From the NCBI GenBank assembly GCA_025356015.1, contig JANXYO010000103.1, positions 1 to 64,000 of the forward strand: a DNA stretch of 64,000 bases, given 5' to 3'. The position numbers and the translations under genes are program-made. Source of the DNA: Spirochaetaceae bacterium. Lineage in GTDB: Bacteria > Spirochaetota > Spirochaetia > Treponematales > Rectinemataceae. Below the pieces are notes generated by a model that saw nothing but the letters and a program-made list of their open reading frames with translations, ran no database searches and had not been told where the DNA came from. The number at the start of each line of letters is the position of its first letter. The stretch's first letter is position 1. Positions 4,716 through 41,261 of the stretch are shown here, in pieces.

Positions 4716-6197
4716 CTAGCGGGGTCGCCTGATCGACCGGGCCCCGCGCAGCCAGGCCAGACGGGCGACGTTGCGTAGCGACCCGAAGAAACAGGCCGAT
4801 GTGAACCAGGCAGCGATTCCCGGCTCGAGGGCGAAGGCCATGTTCCAGGAGAGCCCCCGGTGCAGGGCGAGGCCGAGGGCAGCCGGGGCGAGGGCGAACA
4901 CCACGCAGCGCAGGGCAAGCCCGAGGACCGAGCGCGCCATCGCGAAGCGGATCGGCCCGGGCGCTCCGACTGCGTCGGCCCTTCCCTTGATGTCCTTGGC
5001 CCAGCGGAGCGCGCCCCCGGTCTGGGCGGAAAGCACGAGAATGTGGACAGCGGCTATGACGGCAAGGAGGATGTACAGGCGGCCGAGGGGGAAGGGCCTA
5101 TCAGTGGCTCCGTCGCGGATGATCCGCCTTGCGCCCGCGGCGAGGGCGGGCAGGGAGAGGGAAGACTGGAGCAGGGAATTCTGGGTCGCGGCGATCGCGA
5201 CTCCGTTTCTTTCCTGTGGCCAAACGACTATGCGGGAGGAAAAGCCGTCAAGCGGCCCGTCGCTGGAGCCCGATCGCAGGCCCTTGTCCTCCTGGAGGGA
5301 CCAGCCCCAGCCATAGGCGATGCCCGGGACAAGGGGCTCGAACAGCCTGGTCACGGAGCGCTGGGGAAGTGGCGGGCGTCGCTGCCTCTCTGGCGCCGCG
5401 AGGAAGGCGAGGTAGACTCCAAGATCAGAAGCCGTGGAGACGATGTAGGCCGAGGGCGCTCCGAAAGGCCTCTGGGTCTGGGCCCGCTGGAGGGACATGC
5501 CGAAGAAGGAGCCGTTGCCCTGCGGGATCGCCTTTCGCAGATCCTCCGACCGCGCAGTGCTCCCGCTCATGCCCAGGGGCTTGAAGACGAGGTCGGCGAT
5601 GAGATCGGAATAGCGCTCGCCCGAGACCTTCTCCATGACGAGGCCAAGAGCCTGATAGTCGGTGTTGATAAGGTGGAACTCCGCGCCGGGGGGGGCGACG
5701 GGCACCGCCTCGAGCAGTGAACGCACCGCCGCGGTCAGGTCGGACGCGGAGTCGTGGGCATCGTCGAATCCAGATTCGGTGACTCCCGACGTGTGCGAGA
5801 GGAGGTGGCGCGCAGTGACCTCCAGGCCCGAGCCGCCTGCGAAGCCGAACCAGGGGAGGTACTTCCTGACCGGGGCATCGATGTCCAGCCTGCCGTCACG
5901 CACAAGGGAGGCCGCGGCGACCCCGGCGAGGGTCCTGGCCGCCGCTCCCACGAAAAGCTGGCTGTTGGGACCGAGGCTCCGGCCAGAGCCGTCGTGGCCA
6001 AAGGCATCGACGTAGATGAGGGAGCCGTTCGAAACCACGGCCACGGCCAGGCCGGAGAGGGCCTGACGCGCCCTTTCGACGCGGAAATAGCTGCCCAGGT
6101 CCGTATAACGTTCCGGTCCGATGTCCGGCGCGTACAGAAGGACAATGGCGGCCGCCACGATAACCGCAAAGGGGGCGATCCGCTTGAGGATCTTCAT
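4716..6197 (-). CDS. Membrane-anchored beta-lactamase/PBP4*-fold protein lacking catalytic residues (probable pseudoenzyme)
   Basis: 493 residues. An N-terminal membrane/signal segment (about 6-26) precedes a class C beta-lactamase-like serine hydrolase domain (PF00144; landmarks HLLSHTSGV and FKPLGM), then three hydrophobic segments at about 370-460. The catalytic motifs are altered: where family members have SxxK (GSVSKT) this protein has GAAART, so Ser and Lys are both lost; the YxN tyrosine is replaced (HLINTDY), and the H/KxG box reads SSDG. It is therefore unlikely to hydrolyse beta-lactams or peptides and may be a binding or sensor protein. An extended -10 lies 8 nt before the ATG. Neighbouring thioesterase gene is divergent. 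Confidence 0.8.
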   Translation of the reverse strand: MKILKRIAPFAVIVAAAIVLLYAPDIGPERYTDLGSYFRVERARQALSGLAVAVVSNGSLIYVDAFGHDGSGRSLGPNSQLFVGAAARTLAGVAAASLVRDGRLDIDAPVRKYLPWFGFAGGSGLEVTARHLLSHTSGVTESGFDDAHDSASDLTAAVRSLLEAVPVAPPGAEFHLINTDYQALGLVMEKVSGERYSDLIADLVFKPLGMSGSTARSEDLRKAIPQGNGSFFGMSLQRAQTQRPFGAPSAYIVSTASDLGVYLAFLAAPERQRRPPLPQRSVTRLFEPLVPGIAYGWGWSLQEDKGLRSGSSDGPLDGFSSRIVVWPQERNGVAIAATQNSLLQSSLSLPALAAGARRIIRDGATDRPFPLGRLYILLAVIAAVHILVLSAQTGGALRWAKDIKGRADAVGAPGPIRFAMARSVLGLALRCVVFALAPAALGLALHRGLSWNMAFALEPGIAAWFTSACFFGSLRNVARLAWLRGARSIRRPR

Positions 6198-34554: not shown

Positions 34555-35184
34555 ATGAGCGGACGAAGGGAAATCGCGACCGGGGCATCGGAGGACAGGC
34601 TCCAGCGCCTGATCAGGGAGCGCCTCGAGCCGGGTTCGGACAAGAGGCGGATCGACGAGAGGATCTGGGACCTCTTCGGCGAGGACTGGTGCGTCATGTT
34701 CACCGACCTCTCGGGCTTCTCCCGCCAGGTAGCGGAGTTCGGCATCATCCACTTCCTCCAGACCATGCACGAATCCGAGCGCATCCTCCTTCCCGTCATT
34801 GAGGACCACGACGGGATCCTCCTCAAGGTCGAGGGAGACAGCTTCCTCGTCATCTTCCGCAATGCCAGGAAGGCCCTGCAGTGCGCGATAGCGATGCAAA
34901 GGACAGTCGCGGCCTATGACGCGGACAAGAGCGACGAGGAGAAGGTCCTCCTCTGCGTGGGACTGGGCTACGGCAGGATGCTGCGTATCGGTGACGCCGA
35001 CGTCTACGGAGCCGAAGTGAACGCCGCGAGCAAGCTCGGGGAGGACCGTGCGAAGGCCTGGGAGATCCTCGTCACGGGCGCGGTGAAGGAACGATGCGCG
35101 GAGGATGCCGGTCTCGGTTTCGAGGGCCTGAGCGAACCCCCAGCGGGCTGCACTGAAGCCTTCAGGGTCTCCTACCGCCTCTAG
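34555..35184 (+). CDS. Class III nucleotidyl (adenylate) cyclase catalytic-domain protein
   Basis: 209 residues, a stand-alone class III cyclase domain. FTDLSGFS supplies the first metal Asp. LLKVEGDSFLVIF has the purine-selecting Lys (adenine-type) and the second metal Asp. VYGAEVNAASKL carries the transition-state Asn but has Lys where most cyclases have Arg. Likely makes cAMP in the cytoplasm, possibly with reduced activity. The CRP-like gene at 39048-39698 and the cNMP-domain protein at 17758-19950 are potential effectors. No RBS stronger than GGGGG is seen. The 3' end overlaps the convergent radical SAM gene by 23 nt. Confidence 0.82.
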   Translation: MSGRREIATGASEDRLQRLIRERLEPGSDKRRIDERIWDLFGEDWCVMFTDLSGFSRQVAEFGIIHFLQTMHESERILLPVIEDHDGILLKVEGDSFLVIFRNARKALQCAIAMQRTVAAYDADKSDEEKVLLCVGLGYGRMLRIGDADVYGAEVNAASKLGEDRAKAWEILVTGAVKERCAEDAGLGFEGLSEPPAGCTEAFRVSYRL

Positions 35185-36886
35185 GGCCGGTCTCGACGAG
35201 CGCCCCTCCACCGGGCTTGGGCGACACGATGAGGACGGAGGGGCGCTTGCGCGCCCTCCGCACGAAACGGGCAAGATCGAGGGCCTCGGGGCCGAGGACC
35301 TCGTCGGGATCATAGCTGAGCTCCACCCTCGTCCTGCTTCCCTCGGCAAGAGCCCGCCCCCAGGCCCCGTGGAAGTGGACCAGGTCAGCGAGGGCGGGCA
35401 GAAGGGCATCGAGGCCCTTCTTCTGGTAGCGCTCGCCAAGATAGCCCAGCTGCATCGACTCAATCCCCGCGCTTGAGGGCTCCCCTTCGCTGCCACTATT
35501 CCCTAACCTTGTCCTTCCGGCCGCCTTCCAGGCACCGAAGTCCTCGAAAAAGGCCGAGGGACCGAGCCGGAGGGGCTTGAGGGCCGCGAGGAACCAGGCC
35601 ACGGCACGGCCGCGCGTGTAGAAGAGGTCGCAGGCCTGGGCCAGGGACTCCGCGCGGTCGAGGGCCTCGGAAGGGAAGCTAGGCGTCGAGCGCAGGAGGT
35701 AGGGTGCCGCCTTTTCCGCCACAAGGCCGTGCTCCGCCATCCTGTCGGCCAACTCAGTCCCGGGAAGCACGGACAGACGGAATATGTCCAGGTGGTTTGG
35801 CAGGAGGCCGATGGCGTAGTCGAGGCTTTCGCGGAATCCCGACAGGGTATCGCGGGGAAGGCCATAGATGAGGTCGAGGCCAAAGGTCAGGCCCTCGGCG
35901 TTCAGCAGGGCGATCTTGCGCGAGAAGTCCTCCCTGTCGATGCGGCGACCTATTGCTTCGAGGACCTCGCTGCGCGCGCTCTGGAGGCCGATCTGCAGGG
36001 AGCAGTCCAGGGCGGCGAAGGCCCGGGCCAGGGCCCTGTCGAGGAGCTCGGCTCTGACCTCGAACTTCCACCTGACTCCGGGGGCCCGCCGGGCGAAGAG
36101 CCCCAGAAGCCTCGCTGCCCTCTCCCTGTCGGCATTGAAGGTCGGGTCAAGGACGAAGACCTGTCCCACCTTGGCCTTCACGAAGAGCTCGAGCTCGGCC
36201 TCGATCCTCTGCATCGGAAAACGCCTCACCCCCGCCTCGCCCTTGGATTCGTAGCAGTAGGCGCAGCGGAATGGACAGCCGCGCGCAAGCTCCCAGAGCA
36301 GGCCCTCCCGTGCCGCCGGGTCGAGGACTGCCTTCCTTAGCGGAGCAATTGCCAGCCAGGGCGAGGGCAGGAGTCCGGGATCCTCGATCGGAGCCCTGCG
36401 GCCTCCCGTCACGGAAGACCGGGTTTCAATTCCGCTCATCGCGCCAAGTCCCGCAATTGCCTCGCGGGGCGAGGACGATTCCAGTATGAGGGAGAGGAGT
36501 TTCGCGCAGGCGCTCTCGCCCTCGCCAGCGACGACAAAATCCAGGTCACCCTCGGACAGGACCCCGGAAGGATCGGCGGTGGCCTCGGGCCCGCCGGCGA
36601 AGAGGAGGGCTTCTGGCCTTTCCCTCCTGAACGCTCTCGCGGCCTCAAGGACCATGGCCCTGTTCCAGGAATAGACCGAGAAACCTACCCATTCTGCCCG
36701 GGACTCGCGTATCGAGTGGGCCAGGGAAGCCGCATCTCCGCCTTCCTTGCCCTCCAGGATGAAGGCATCAATCCAGGCGCCAAGCCGGGGGTGGGCGCGC
36801 AGGGCGGCGACGACAGAGGCGGCGCCGAGGGGGAGGGATTCGGCCGAGCTCTCGATGGCCAGGGATACGATTGCCGTGCGGATCAT
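35162..36886 (-). CDS. B12-binding-domain radical SAM protein
   Basis: 574 residues. Residues 1-160 form a cobalamin-binding-type Rossmann domain (GAASVVAALRAHP, WVGFSVYSWN, LLFAGGPEATA, DFVVAGEGE) without an obvious DxHxxG. The radical SAM core begins ARGCPFRCAYCYESKG (Cx3Cx2C) and continues with VFVLDPTFN, SLQIGLQSA and GLDLIYGLPRDT. The C-terminal domain is of the DUF4080 type. Such proteins do methylations or other radical chemistry; substrate unknown. It is the last gene of a four-gene minus-strand operon, 12 nt after the ADP-ribosylglycohydrolase/phosphatase fusion. Confidence 0.83.
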   Translation of the reverse strand: MIRTAIVSLAIESSAESLPLGAASVVAALRAHPRLGAWIDAFILEGKEGGDAASLAHSIRESRAEWVGFSVYSWNRAMVLEAARAFRRERPEALLFAGGPEATADPSGVLSEGDLDFVVAGEGESACAKLLSLILESSSPREAIAGLGAMSGIETRSSVTGGRRAPIEDPGLLPSPWLAIAPLRKAVLDPAAREGLLWELARGCPFRCAYCYESKGEAGVRRFPMQRIEAELELFVKAKVGQVFVLDPTFNADRERAARLLGLFARRAPGVRWKFEVRAELLDRALARAFAALDCSLQIGLQSARSEVLEAIGRRIDREDFSRKIALLNAEGLTFGLDLIYGLPRDTLSGFRESLDYAIGLLPNHLDIFRLSVLPGTELADRMAEHGLVAEKAAPYLLRSTPSFPSEALDRAESLAQACDLFYTRGRAVAWFLAALKPLRLGPSAFFEDFGAWKAAGRTRLGNSGSEGEPSSAGIESMQLGYLGERYQKKGLDALLPALADLVHFHGAWGRALAEGSRTRVELSYDPDEVLGPEALDLARFVRRARKRPSVLIVSPKPGGGALVETGPRGGRRP

Positions 36887-36898
36887 CAGGCTCTGTCC

Positions 36899-38434
36899 CT
36901 AGATGGTCAGTGCGGCTGCCCCGGAACGCCACCGGGAGACGGCAAGCCTCTGCTCCTGGGTCTCGGGCGAGCCATGTTCCCCCGCCCCGCTGGCCTCGCG
37001 GAGGGCGGCCAGAAGATCGAGGGCCTCGCCCGGAGCTGCAAGGCCGTGCTCGACAAGCCAGGCCCCGATTACTGTCCCCGTCCTCCCGAGCCCGCCAAGA
37101 CAATGAACATAGACACGCCTCCCCGAACCCAGCATGGCATCGATGTCAGCAAGCGCCGCCCGGATCTCCGGGCCGCCTGCTGCGCTCATGTCGGCTATCG
37201 GCACGCGTCTCCGCTCGGGCTCGATGCCATATCCCGCCGCCATGGCTTTGAACTCCGCCCAATAGTGCGGCAGGACCTTTGCCCCGAAGCCCTCTCCGGC
37301 CTCCGTAAGGTCGAGGACGGCGTCGATGCCCGCATCGAGGAGGGCGGAGAGACGCATGTTCGAGGACCCGTCCTCGGCCCCGTGCGGCCAGGGACCGGCG
37401 AAGAGACGTCCCGGCAGGACCCGGTAGACGCCCGGCAGGAGGATGCGGGTCTCGACCAGTCCGGCGAGGGCGAGGCCCGAGGCCTCCACGTCCTGGGCAT
37501 GGGACAGCCGGGAGACCCATTTCTCGGGCAGGGCCTCGCGCCCATAGGCCAGGCCAGCCAGGCCTCCCGCGGTCGCGGCAGTCGCGTTGGCGTTCTCGCC
37601 AAGGTTCACGGCGGCGAGCACGCAGTCGTGGAAATCGCCTGTGCCAAGCAGGCACCAGAGCGAGGCCTCGAGACAGTGGACGACGTAACCCGATCCACGC
37701 ACGGCCGTTGAGGGAAGTTTGGCCAGATTCCCCCCAAGCACGCGATCGAAATGCCCGGCCTCGGCCCTGAGGCGCGGCTCGCCCGTCGCGAGCCAGACTT
37801 GGGCCCTTTCCATGGCCTCGCCGTATGCCTCGGTGGGGCTGAGTCCCGCCATCAGGCCTGTGACTACCAGGGCATGGAGCCAGGAAGCGAGGAAGGAACG
37901 GGGATGTCCGTGGGTCGGGGCGGAGTAGGATGCGACCGCGCGCCAGAGCAGGGGCTCGCTCATGCCGGCGAGCCAGATCGAGGCGGGAAGCATCCGCGAA
38001 AGCCCGCCATTGCCATTGTCATTTTCTCCGCGGCCCCCCGCGATCACCGCCGGCATGCCGCCCCTTATGCGCTCGAGGGCGCGCACGACCTGGCCTCCCG
38101 CGCCGAAGGACCTTCCTATCGCGCTTCTGTGGCCCTCGTCGAGCCATGACAGGGCCCTTTGGCCGAAGTCCTGGGGATCGAAGCCCGTGGCGCAGATGCT
38201 GTCCGCGAGACAGAGAGCCAGAGAGGTCTCGTCCGACCATATCCCGAGGCCCTTTCCCCAGCCGCTCGCCTCGCGTAATCCCGTCACCGGGTCTGCCTGC
38301 CGCTCGGCCCTTGATCCGAAATCCACGCAGAGGCCGAGGGCGTCGCCTAGCGCCAGGCCGAGGAGGCCACCAGCTGCCCGCGAACGGATGTTCATGGTCA
38401 TGCCCGGTACCCTGCCAACCCGAATGTCGTGCAT
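36899..38434 (-). CDS. ADP-ribosylglycohydrolase fused to dual-specificity/tyrosine phosphatase
   Basis: 511 residues. Residues about 15-330 are an ADP-ribosylglycohydrolase (DraG/ARH) fold: GLALGDALG (Asp31), IWSDETSLALCLADS (Asp68) and the C-terminal metal loop, which here is NLGENANATAA instead of GDDTDT, so both Asp ligands are Asn (281, 283). Residues about 345-500 are a cysteine phosphatase with an intact P-loop HCLGGLGRTG (Cys445, Arg451). The first domain may bind without hydrolysing ADP-ribose, while the second should cleave phosphate esters. The ATG follows GGAG by 7 nt. Gene spacing to both neighbours is 12 nt, indicating an operon with the NTAQ1-like and radical SAM genes. Confidence 0.85.
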   Translation of the reverse strand: MHDIRVGRVPGMTMNIRSRAAGGLLGLALGDALGLCVDFGSRAERQADPVTGLREASGWGKGLGIWSDETSLALCLADSICATGFDPQDFGQRALSWLDEGHRSAIGRSFGAGGQVVRALERIRGGMPAVIAGGRGENDNGNGGLSRMLPASIWLAGMSEPLLWRAVASYSAPTHGHPRSFLASWLHALVVTGLMAGLSPTEAYGEAMERAQVWLATGEPRLRAEAGHFDRVLGGNLAKLPSTAVRGSGYVVHCLEASLWCLLGTGDFHDCVLAAVNLGENANATAATAGGLAGLAYGREALPEKWVSRLSHAQDVEASGLALAGLVETRILLPGVYRVLPGRLFAGPWPHGAEDGSSNMRLSALLDAGIDAVLDLTEAGEGFGAKVLPHYWAEFKAMAAGYGIEPERRRVPIADMSAAGGPEIRAALADIDAMLGSGRRVYVHCLGGLGRTGTVIGAWLVEHGLAAPGEALDLLAALREASGAGEHGSPETQEQRLAVSRWRSGAAALTI

Positions 38435-38446
38435 CGCTTCACTCCG

Positions 38447-39034
38447 TCATACCGGATATCCGCTGCCCTGACGGTAGCGGATGAAACTCTCGAATCCCCC
38501 GAGGTCCACGACCATGCCCGGGGAAGGCAGGGCAAGGTCGATCCAGGACAGGAGGTTTCGTTCACCAGGATCCCCGGGGGCAGGCCATCCTGGCGGAGGG
38601 GCCAGCCAGCCGCCGTCAGGACCCCTCATGTGCGAGCGGTCCGAGGAGAGCTTCGCGACATAGAAGGCCGCGGGCATGATCCGGAACAGCGGCTCCTGCC
38701 CTCGCCTCGCGGGGCGGCCGAAGGTAGCCTCGAGGTAGCTGAAGGCCGGGCAGGGGAAGGGGAGTGCCGAATCGACGTCGAGCACCAGACAGCCAAGCTC
38801 GCTGTCACTCGCCACGGAGAATACATGGTAGTCCCAGTTGACCAGACCGTCTCCCGGCCTTCCCGCCATCTGGCGCAGCAGGGCCACCCGTTTCGAGGGG
38901 CTCGAGACGATCACTACCCAGGCCTCGTCGACGGCAAGGTCGGACCTTGCCAGGAGACGCCAGATGTTCTCCTCGCAGTAGAACGGCACGCGTTCGCAGG
39001 TGCCCCGCTCGATCCCGATCATAAGCGGGATCAT
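38447..39034 (-). CDS. NTAQ1-like protein N-terminal glutamine amidohydrolase
   Basis: 195 residues with an unmistakable match to eukaryotic NTAQ1 (PF09764). YCEENIWRL contains the nucleophile (Cys20). RPGDGLVNWDYHVF contains the catalytic His70. LVLDVDSALPFPC contains Asp86. SDRSHM and WLAPPPGWPAP match the C-terminal family blocks. NTAQ1 converts N-terminal Gln to Glu, which in eukaryotes leads to arginylation and degradation. All three catalytic residues are kept, so activity is expected. In bacteria the Glu product could be leucylated by Bpt, but neither Bpt nor ClpS is in the window. An ATG four codons in (39022) has an extended -10 (TGCTATGAT) 7 nt before it and may be the true start. 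Confidence 0.9.
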   Translation of the reverse strand: MIPLMIGIERGTCERVPFYCEENIWRLLARSDLAVDEAWVVIVSSPSKRVALLRQMAGRPGDGLVNWDYHVFSVASDSELGCLVLDVDSALPFPCPAFSYLEATFGRPARRGQEPLFRIMPAAFYVAKLSSDRSHMRGPDGGWLAPPPGWPAPGDPGERNLLSWIDLALPSPGMVVDLGGFESFIRYRQGSGYPV

Positions 39035-39047
39035 AGCATGGTCGGAC

Positions 39048-39698
39048 CTAGCCCGGCTCTCCCTCCCTCGTGCGCCGATCGTTCGCCTTGACGAAATCGG
39101 CAGGGAGGAGGAGGAACTCCTTGGTCTTGGCGCTGGTCGCTGCCCAGCTTATGGATTCGGCCTTGAGAAGGCGGTAGATCGCCGCCTCGATCTCGTCCAT
39201 GGACGCGCCGATCCGGCCGTTTATCCAGGCCTTCATAGCCTCGACGTTCGCCTTGATCGCCCCCTCGTGGATCCGCTCCCCGTGGTTCACCGCGAAGTCG
39301 ACCATGCCACGGGCAATGCGTTCCCTTGGCATGGTGTCGATGAGGTCGGAAACCTGGTCATTCGAGCGCCTGATCCTCGCTGCGAGGATCTTGATGATCT
39401 TGAGGGCGAATTTTCCGTTCGAGAGGATCATCGACTCAAAAGTCGGGCCGTCAACCGGGAGGACCCGCGTGGGCCTTGCGGCGACGGCGCTGGCCGAGCG
39501 TGGCCTGTCGTCGAGGAGGGCCATCTCCCCGAAAAAGTCGTTCGGGGTGTCGACGGTCTTGATGACAGTCTCGCCGCGATCGACCTTGATCTTGATGTCC
39601 ACGGCCCCGTCGAGGAGGACATACATCATCTTGCCCGGATCACCTTCGGCGAATATCAGCTCGCCGGCCGCGTACTCTTTCACGTTTTCGTTTGCCAT
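39048..39698 (-). CDS. CRP/FNR-like cyclic nucleotide-binding protein
   Basis: 216 residues. A cNMP-binding beta-roll covers about 5-120: GELIFAEGDPGKMMYVLLDGAVDI, then the phosphate-binding cassette FFGEMALLDDRPRSASA, with the Glu and Arg that contact cAMP ribose and phosphate in CRP. A C-helix and a degenerate winged-helix-like region follow (about 120-210); the recognition helix is not obvious, so it may be a DNA-binding regulator or an adaptor. It heads the operon with the NTAQ1-like, ARH-phosphatase and radical SAM genes. A promoter with its -10 9 nt before the ATG is visible and no RBS is present. Confidence 0.85.
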   Translation of the reverse strand: MANENVKEYAAGELIFAEGDPGKMMYVLLDGAVDIKIKVDRGETVIKTVDTPNDFFGEMALLDDRPRSASAVAARPTRVLPVDGPTFESMILSNGKFALKIIKILAARIRRSNDQVSDLIDTMPRERIARGMVDFAVNHGERIHEGAIKANVEAMKAWINGRIGASMDEIEAAIYRLLKAESISWAATSAKTKEFLLLPADFVKANDRRTREGEPG

Positions 39699-39788: not shown

Positions 39789-41261
39789 CTAGGCGCCCGT
39801 ATAGCCCAGGACTTCCTTTTCCAGCCTGCCGCGATACTCGAGGAGGGCGAGGAGGATGCCCCTTTCCCGCGCGGGCGTCGCCGGGTTCTCAAGCTTCTGG
39901 GCGATGATCTTTGAGAATGTCGCGAGATCGACAGCTTCCCGTGTTGGGGGAAGCTGGAGGCGGCCGGCGCAGAACGCCCTCCAGCGCTTCGACTCCGGAG
40001 GGGACAGGGTGGCGGGGAAGTTCCGGGCGAAGAAGCGCCGCAGCATCTGGGCCGGTCGATCGTCCCGGAAACGCAGAGCGTAGAGTCTCGCCTTGGCCGC
40101 CGCCGGGCCTTCCTCGTCGAGAGCCTCGTGGATGGTCTCGAAGGAGGCCGCATCCTCCTCTCCGAAAAAGCCGTCGGAGTAGATCCTAAGCTCGGGATCC
40201 TCGAGCGCCTCGCCCGGCGGTGGCGGCTCGAAGACCGCCACGAGCTTCTGCATGAGCTCGCCTTCGCCCTTTATGAGGGCAAGGTGGGATAGGCATTCGT
40301 CGAGGTCGATCCCAAGCCGCGCCGCCGCATCAGCGCTCAGTGCTCCGAGAGGGGACAGGAAAGGGCAGCGGTTGAGGCGGATGACCACGAGGGGGAGCCG
40401 CTCGACATCGAGTTCCGTAGCCTTGGTGAACACCCGGCGCCTGAGCTCCTCCACGGGAAGGTCGACGATGCCTCGGGGATCAAAACGGAGATCGATGGCG
40501 ATCAGCCTGTTGCGGTCCTCGGGATCGATGGATAGTGGCGCGACGACTGTCGTGCAGCCCCGCGGGGAGGTGTATGAGACCGATGTATGAAGCAGGGGAA
40601 GCCTTTCCACGAGGTCGATGAGGGGCTTGAGCGACTCGCGGCCCCGATGCGAGAAGTACCACTCGAAGAGCTTGGGCTGCCGCGTCCGGACGAGCTTCGC
40701 AAGTCCGATCGTCGCGAGTACGTCGTGCATCGCGTCGTGGGCTGCCTCGTGGGCGATGCCGTTCGCCTTGGCGAGGGCAGCAAGGGTAAAAAGCGGGCGC
40801 CCCTCGTCGTCGGCGGGCCAGATAATGCCCTCGGGCCGCAGGTCCCGGGCGGCACGCATGAGGTCGATCATGTCCCAGCGCGAGTTGCCGTTCCTCCACT
40901 CGCGCGAATAGGGATCCAGGAAGTTCCTGTAGAGCAGATTGCGCACGAATTCGTCGTCGAACTTGAGGGAGTTGAAACCCACCACGGCCGTACCGGGCAC
41001 CGACATCTCCGACTGGAGCCGCCGCGCGAGCTCGTACTCCGTGATACCCTCCGAAAGGGCGAATTGCGGCGTGATCCCGTGAACAAGACAGGAATAGGGG
41101 CTTGGCAGGTAGTCAGGTGTCGGCCTGCAGTAGACCAGCACCCTTTCCCCGATCTGCTCGAAGCGGTCATCGGTCCTGACGGCCGCGACCTGCACGATGC
41201 GGTCATAGCGCGGGTCAAGCCCGAAGGTTTCGAGGTCGTACCAGAGGAGGGAGGGCGGCAT
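39789..41261 (-). CDS. sbcB: Exodeoxyribonuclease I
   Basis: 490 residues, close to E. coli ExoI. It starts with the DEDDh exonuclease motif LLWYDLETFGLDP, followed by VGFNSLKFDDEFVRN (Exo II) and HDAMHDVLATIGLA (Exo III with its His and Asp). The SH3-like and C-terminal helical regions that form the ssDNA channel follow. It degrades ssDNA 3' to 5' during recombination and mismatch repair. The -10 (TGCTATAGT) ends 6 nt before the ATG and there is no RBS. It is divergent from the Gre-factor gene, with a 10-bp palindrome in the 54-nt gap. Confidence 0.93.
   Translation of the reverse strand: MPPSLLWYDLETFGLDPRYDRIVQVAAVRTDDRFEQIGERVLVYCRPTPDYLPSPYSCLVHGITPQFALSEGITEYELARRLQSEMSVPGTAVVGFNSLKFDDEFVRNLLYRNFLDPYSREWRNGNSRWDMIDLMRAARDLRPEGIIWPADDEGRPLFTLAALAKANGIAHEAAHDAMHDVLATIGLAKLVRTRQPKLFEWYFSHRGRESLKPLIDLVERLPLLHTSVSYTSPRGCTTVVAPLSIDPEDRNRLIAIDLRFDPRGIVDLPVEELRRRVFTKATELDVERLPLVVIRLNRCPFLSPLGALSADAAARLGIDLDECLSHLALIKGEGELMQKLVAVFEPPPPGEALEDPELRIYSDGFFGEEDAASFETIHEALDEEGPAAAKARLYALRFRDDRPAQMLRRFFARNFPATLSPPESKRWRAFCAGRLQLPPTREAVDLATFSKIIAQKLENPATPARERGILLALLEYRGRLEKEVLGYTGA

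Follow-up and report, generated by a model that had tools for sequence, protein, structure and literature searches.

A predicted NTAQ1-family N-terminal glutamine amidase in a bacterial operon and its possible place in a bacterial N-degron pathway

Deamidation of N-terminal glutamine by NTAQ1 is described as a eukaryotic step (PMC7022378, PMC4214742), as the earlier note on this DNA had stated. The human enzyme has a catalytic triad of Cys28, His81 and Asp97 and contacts the bound N-terminus through Trp78, Asp79 and Tyr80, and mouse NTAQ1 proteins mutated at the equivalent cysteine and histidine are nearly inactive (PMC4214742). Yeast Nta1 and the NTAN1 proteins of metazoans and plants likewise turn an N-terminal amide into an acid ahead of a transferase, but their folds (nitrilase, and CNF1/YfiH-like) are unrelated to that of NTAQ1 (PMC7022378). 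The bacterial N-degron pathways described start at secondary residues (Arg/Lys, Asp/Glu) without a tertiary amide step (PMC3692480, PMC12493166), and in Vibrio vulnificus Bpt adds leucine to N-terminal Asp and Glu, rendering the protein destabilised (PMC3692480). The N-degron literature places deamidation of N-terminal glutamine in plants and animals and has the bacterial pathways begin one tier later. We found no description of a bacterial NTAQ1 in the open-access literature searched.

An NTAQ1 gene in a four-gene operon

The window, by which we mean the whole stretch of 64,000 nucleotides that was analysed, belongs to a 137.7 kb contig of a bacterial genome estimated to be 99% complete. Its minus strand encodes at 38447..39034 a protein of 195 residues with an ATG start that matches PF09764 (Nt_Gln_amidase) across profile positions 3-180 of 184 (E 3.4e-39, 134.8 bits, against a curated cut-off of 27 bits), the only such match in the host genome. 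Human NTAQ1 is a phmmer match in the PDB (E 5.8e-25), and none of the NCBIfam models puts a name on the protein. An alternative ATG at 39022 (Met5) gives a better alignment with the nearest relative than the 195-residue start. The earlier note had called the product a bacterial homologue of NTAQ1 with all of the family blocks and a Cys-His-Asp triad, and both statements are borne out by the full-length match, the human hit and an open reading frame that contains FYCEENIW, GRPGDGLVNWDYH, LDVDSALPFPC, SDRSHM (131-136) and PPPGWP.

Alignment places human C28, H81 and D97 at C20, H70 and D86 of the bacterial protein, and the human W78-D79-Y80 at W67-D68-Y69. Thirteen positions (C20, E21, E22, N23, W67, D68, Y69, H70, D86, D132, R133, H135 and M136) are invariant across 35 bacterial copies, the others of which are 28-53% identical to the window protein, and a protein adapted to some other substrate would hardly be expected to retain the free-amine site. 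An AlphaFold2 model built from an alignment of 35 bacterial sequences has a mean pLDDT of 94.3, and all 17 Foldseek matches in the PDB with E ≤ 0.001 are human NTAQ1, with TM about 0.8 and including complexes that present an N-terminal glutamine; the next-best match is the protein glutaminase 8z3i, at E 0.12. The gene evolves under purifying selection, with dN/dS of 0.07-0.50 in close related pairs, and these genes are therefore maintained. The open reading frame starts about 17 residues ahead of the catalytic block, where a signal peptide would not fit, and because there is no room for one the enzyme is expected to be cytosolic. We consider it very likely, as judged from sequence and modelled fold, that the product is an NTAQ1-family N-terminal glutamine amidase, a member of an enzyme family already known but not expected in this domain of life.

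The gene lies in a tight operon whose four genes share a strand and are separated by 12-13 bases, in agreement with the earlier note, which had placed the copy inside a bacterial operon. It is preceded, 13 bases away, by a gene for a protein with a cNMP-binding (CRP-like sensor) domain (39048..39698), the first of the operon; its stop codon TGA is followed by GGAG and then by the ATG of the next gene, which starts after 12 bases and encodes an ADP-ribosylglycohydrolase fused to a dual-specificity-type phosphatase domain (36899..38434); and the conserved block ends with a B12-binding radical SAM protein (35162..36886), all on the minus strand. Exonuclease I (RNase_T + Exonuc_X-T_C; 39789..41261, minus strand) flanks the block 90 bases upstream. 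The phosphatase domain at 36899-38434 is of the DSP/PTP type (Pfam Tc-R-P), and three genera carry the fusion in their NTAQ1 operon. Beside the operon, a class III cyclase-like domain protein is encoded divergently at 34555-35184; no DNA-binding domain was detected in the cNMP-binding protein at 39048-39698, and these two proteins could form a cyclic-nucleotide pair.

All four genes occur in the same order in two related genera (genomes G001 and G006), and four related genomes have a cNMP-binding gene adjacent to NTAQ1 or close by. In G009 the order is cNMP-NTAQ1-radical SAM, the ADP-ribosylglycohydrolase being absent between the last two, and that gene is likewise absent at NTAQ1 in G017, G014, G032, G037 and G096 and in all other phyla. 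We found no conserved neighbourhood beyond close clades, the remaining carriers of the order and those of every other phylum having different neighbours. The operon is thus an arrangement of local extent that does not specify what NTAQ1 does, and its conserved neighbours have no N-degron role.

Distribution and phylogeny of bacterial NTAQ1

PF09764 occurs sporadically, in 9 of 99 relatives from the host's order and in 4 of 393 genomes drawn from its phylum. A wider scan, with each of 84,980 species represented by a single genome, added 31 loci, cultured strains included, in Pseudomonadota, Planctomycetota, Lentisphaeria (Lentisphaerota), Myxococcota, a Flammeovirgaceae bacterium (Bacteroidota) and a Melainabacterium. 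Cultured carriers that also have Bpt and ClpS include Halochromatium glycolicum, Lamprobacter modestohalophilus, Leucothrix pacifica and Enhygromyxa salina. A search of viral contigs, phages and plasmids for a mobile origin gave zero matches. Some of the loci are unusual in themselves: the gene of Halochromatium sp. A10 (L035:5001-5518) is split over two frames, with a frameshift near 5099 that reflects either a sequencing error or decay, and the draft genome GSL.Bin27 has a pair of unlike NTAQ1 genes, on separate contigs (L016, L031), and is probably a mixed bin.

The earlier note had raised the possibility of transfer between domains, and held that a tree with many deep bacterial lineages would speak against it. 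In a mixture-model tree of 36 sequences, one of them eukaryotic (human), the window protein and eight others of its order form a clade of nine (bootstrap 99, SH-aLRT 95), and the human sequence sits among bacterial lineages of several phyla on a branch of ordinary length, the forks there being open. Deep bacterial lineages are indeed numerous, comprising those of Pseudomonadota, Planctomycetota, Lentisphaerota, Myxococcota, Bacteroidota, Melainabacteria and the host's order. A topology with the window protein and the human one as sisters is disfavoured (AU p 0.029), while one joining the nine order copies with human is not rejected (p 0.22). Given the well-supported order clade, the deep lineages in other phyla and the AU result, these sequences do not support a recent gain of the gene by the host bacterium from a eukaryote. 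An older exchange between domains, whichever its direction, is compatible with the test on the nine copies and with a tree that has one eukaryotic sequence.

That the gene is simply eukaryotic, present through assembly contamination or recent transfer, might be suspected from the open-access literature, in which the family is described from eukaryotes only. We regard this as highly improbable and largely refuted: the contig is bacterial and long, the operon is tight with the same block in two other genera, and against such an origin stand also the order clade, the disfavoured pairing with human and the presence of NTAQ1 in several other bacterial phyla. With NTAQ1 present in bacteria, the origin of the eukaryotic enzyme becomes a question again.

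N-degron partners in NTAQ1 genomes

The earlier note had suggested a bacterial N-degron branch in which glutamate is used by a Bpt-type transferase, and had advised a search for bpt, aat and clpS in the same genome. All three are present in the host. At G000:C56, ClpS adjoins a 760-residue AAA+ protein, ClpA-like as read from its sequence, with Aat close by in a cluster ClpS-ClpA-PAP2-Aat; at G000:C83 is a Bpt-type protein with ATE_N and ATE_C domains whose 251 residues are the size of Bpt, and which scores below the cut-offs of the NCBIfam arginyltransferase models (closest, 168.6 against 170 bits). The suggestion therefore stands as far as the genes go, and the hand-over of N-terminal glutamate to Bpt is a prediction from them.

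ClpS is present in 37 of the 39 NTAQ1 genomes, PF03588 in 34 and PF04377 (Bpt) in 29, and either Bpt or a divergent Aat in 32. The other seven, mostly drafts, have neither, and at least two of these also lack any Aat. Among the 99 genomes of the host's order, Bpt occurs in 6 of 9 with NTAQ1 and in 23 of the remaining 90 (Fisher p 0.017); permuting the labels inside families gives p 0.15, which is not significant, or 0.06 for either transferase, so that the association is at most suggestive and may reflect shared ancestry. None of the three genes bpt, aat and clpS was found beside NTAQ1 in 378 kb of its neighbourhoods. A search for NTAN1 (PF14736) was silent in the 39 genomes and in controls alike, and absence of an Asn branch is not established.

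Nine NTAQ1 genomes of the order divide into six with Bpt and three (G006, G009 and G096) without it, each of which has a second, divergent PF03588 protein (G006:C128:60792-61328, L060; G009:C144:38291-38785, L061; G096:C101, L062; further paralogues are L065-L083). Over the 99 genomes, Bpt (29) and the divergent Aat (41) are mutually exclusive (Fisher p 4e-9, uncorrected for kinship), and the exclusion is also seen within families f1 and f4; in the Bpt-positive genome G002 one search picked up a second, weak PF03588 match (E 2.5e-7) that a later search did not. The 22 divergent sequences that were compared have an invariant DxGMxxxYK where E. coli Aat has DCQVLNDH, they lack the GES motif of E. 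coli Aat, and the new motif resembles the stretch KMDYKxxF of Bpt. We suggest that the divergent Aat may stand in for Bpt in this order as an Asp/Glu N-terminal transferase not recognised so far. A precedent for a Bpt-like divergent Aat is the Aat-like Plasmodium protein ATEL1, which has Asp/Glu specificity; Graciet et al. (2006) reportedly studied both Bpt and ATEL1. Among NTAQ1 genomes of other phyla without Bpt the divergent Aat was not found, and the sites of bpt and divergent aat share zero neighbours, bar one weak match to a common signalling domain type. A separate locus, L084 (G086:C6:182900-184700, minus strand), has a single open frame of 517 residues with an N-terminal Bpt-like (ATE) part and a complete C-terminal Aat, and is by its predicted domains a fused double transferase.

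A possible tertiary step and its comparison with known systems

From the family, the fold and the active and substrate-amine sites we predict activity on N-terminal glutamine, and the genes for ClpS, the ClpA-like protein, Bpt and Aat suggest a physiological role for it. Proteases cutting cytosolic proteins would expose N-terminal glutamine, whose free amino group would be gripped by the invariant Trp-Asp-Tyr; Cys20-His70-Asp86 would attack the side-chain amide, releasing ammonia and leaving N-terminal glutamate; the Bpt of the same genome would then add leucine, and ClpS would bind this residue and pass the protein to ClpA-ClpP. Glutamine would thereby be a tertiary destabilising residue in the host and in scattered other bacteria. 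We think it fairly probable that the main role of bacterial NTAQ1 is to feed Bpt and ClpS in this manner. More tentatively, a three-tier cascade may operate in scattered bacteria of several phyla, running from NTAQ1 to Bpt (or, where members of the order lack Bpt, to the divergent Aat with DxGMxxxYK) and on to ClpS-ClpAP; if so, the NTAQ1 of eukaryotes would represent a single branch within a family of greater age or diversity in bacteria.

A genuine N-terminal glutamine amidase could also act outside protein degradation, deamidating peptides that begin with glutamine and that stem from proteolysis or from import. Such a reaction could salvage nitrogen or prevent the spontaneous formation of pyroglutamate that would block aminopeptidases. 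The sporadic presence of the gene suits an accessory metabolic function, NTAQ1 has no synteny with N-degron genes, and seven of its genomes show no transferase for N-terminal glutamate; moreover, because the structural contacts of NTAQ1 reach only the first few residues of the substrate (PMC7022378), short peptides could serve. We nonetheless find this explanation unlikely, as the substrate site is identical to that of the eukaryotic N-degron enzyme and most carriers have ClpS and either Bpt or the divergent Aat. Still less probable is a retained NTAQ1 fold directed at a specific glutamine, internal or terminal, in a single partner protein, perhaps as part of a regulatory system that involves the co-transcribed ADP-ribosylglycohydrolase/phosphatase. 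Action on internal glutamine is established for other deamidases that belong to the wider papain-like/transglutaminase fold, and the tight operon with that enzyme and the cNMP-binding protein is conserved in three genera; but the neighbours change, the ADP-ribosylglycohydrolase being missing from six carriers and all other phyla as noted above, every copy has the same residues for binding a free N-terminal amine, and the confident structural matches include no protein glutaminase, of which 8z3i is the best hit.

Under the preferred reading, a tertiary step upstream of Bpt and ClpS, the bacterial N-degron pathway would gain a new variant, and the joint presence of an intact NTAQ1 and the downstream parts in a single genome opens such a step to direct testing. 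The bacterial protein shares with eukaryotic NTAQ1 (human C8orf32; PDB 3C9Q/4W79/8JJx; PF09764) the whole domain, the fold, the catalytic triad and the substrate-amine residues, with about 32% identity over the structure alignment; the eukaryotic enzyme has ATE1, UBR proteins and the proteasome as its partners, whereas those of the bacterial copy, scattered by genome and of predicted activity, would be Bpt, ClpS and ClpAP. All known parts of the bacterial Leu/N-degron pathway of E. coli and Vibrio vulnificus (Aat, Bpt, ClpS and ClpAP) are present in the NTAQ1 host genome. The eukaryotic cascade likewise has three steps, but it ends in arginine and ubiquitin, whereas the bacterial one proposed here would end in leucine and ClpS.
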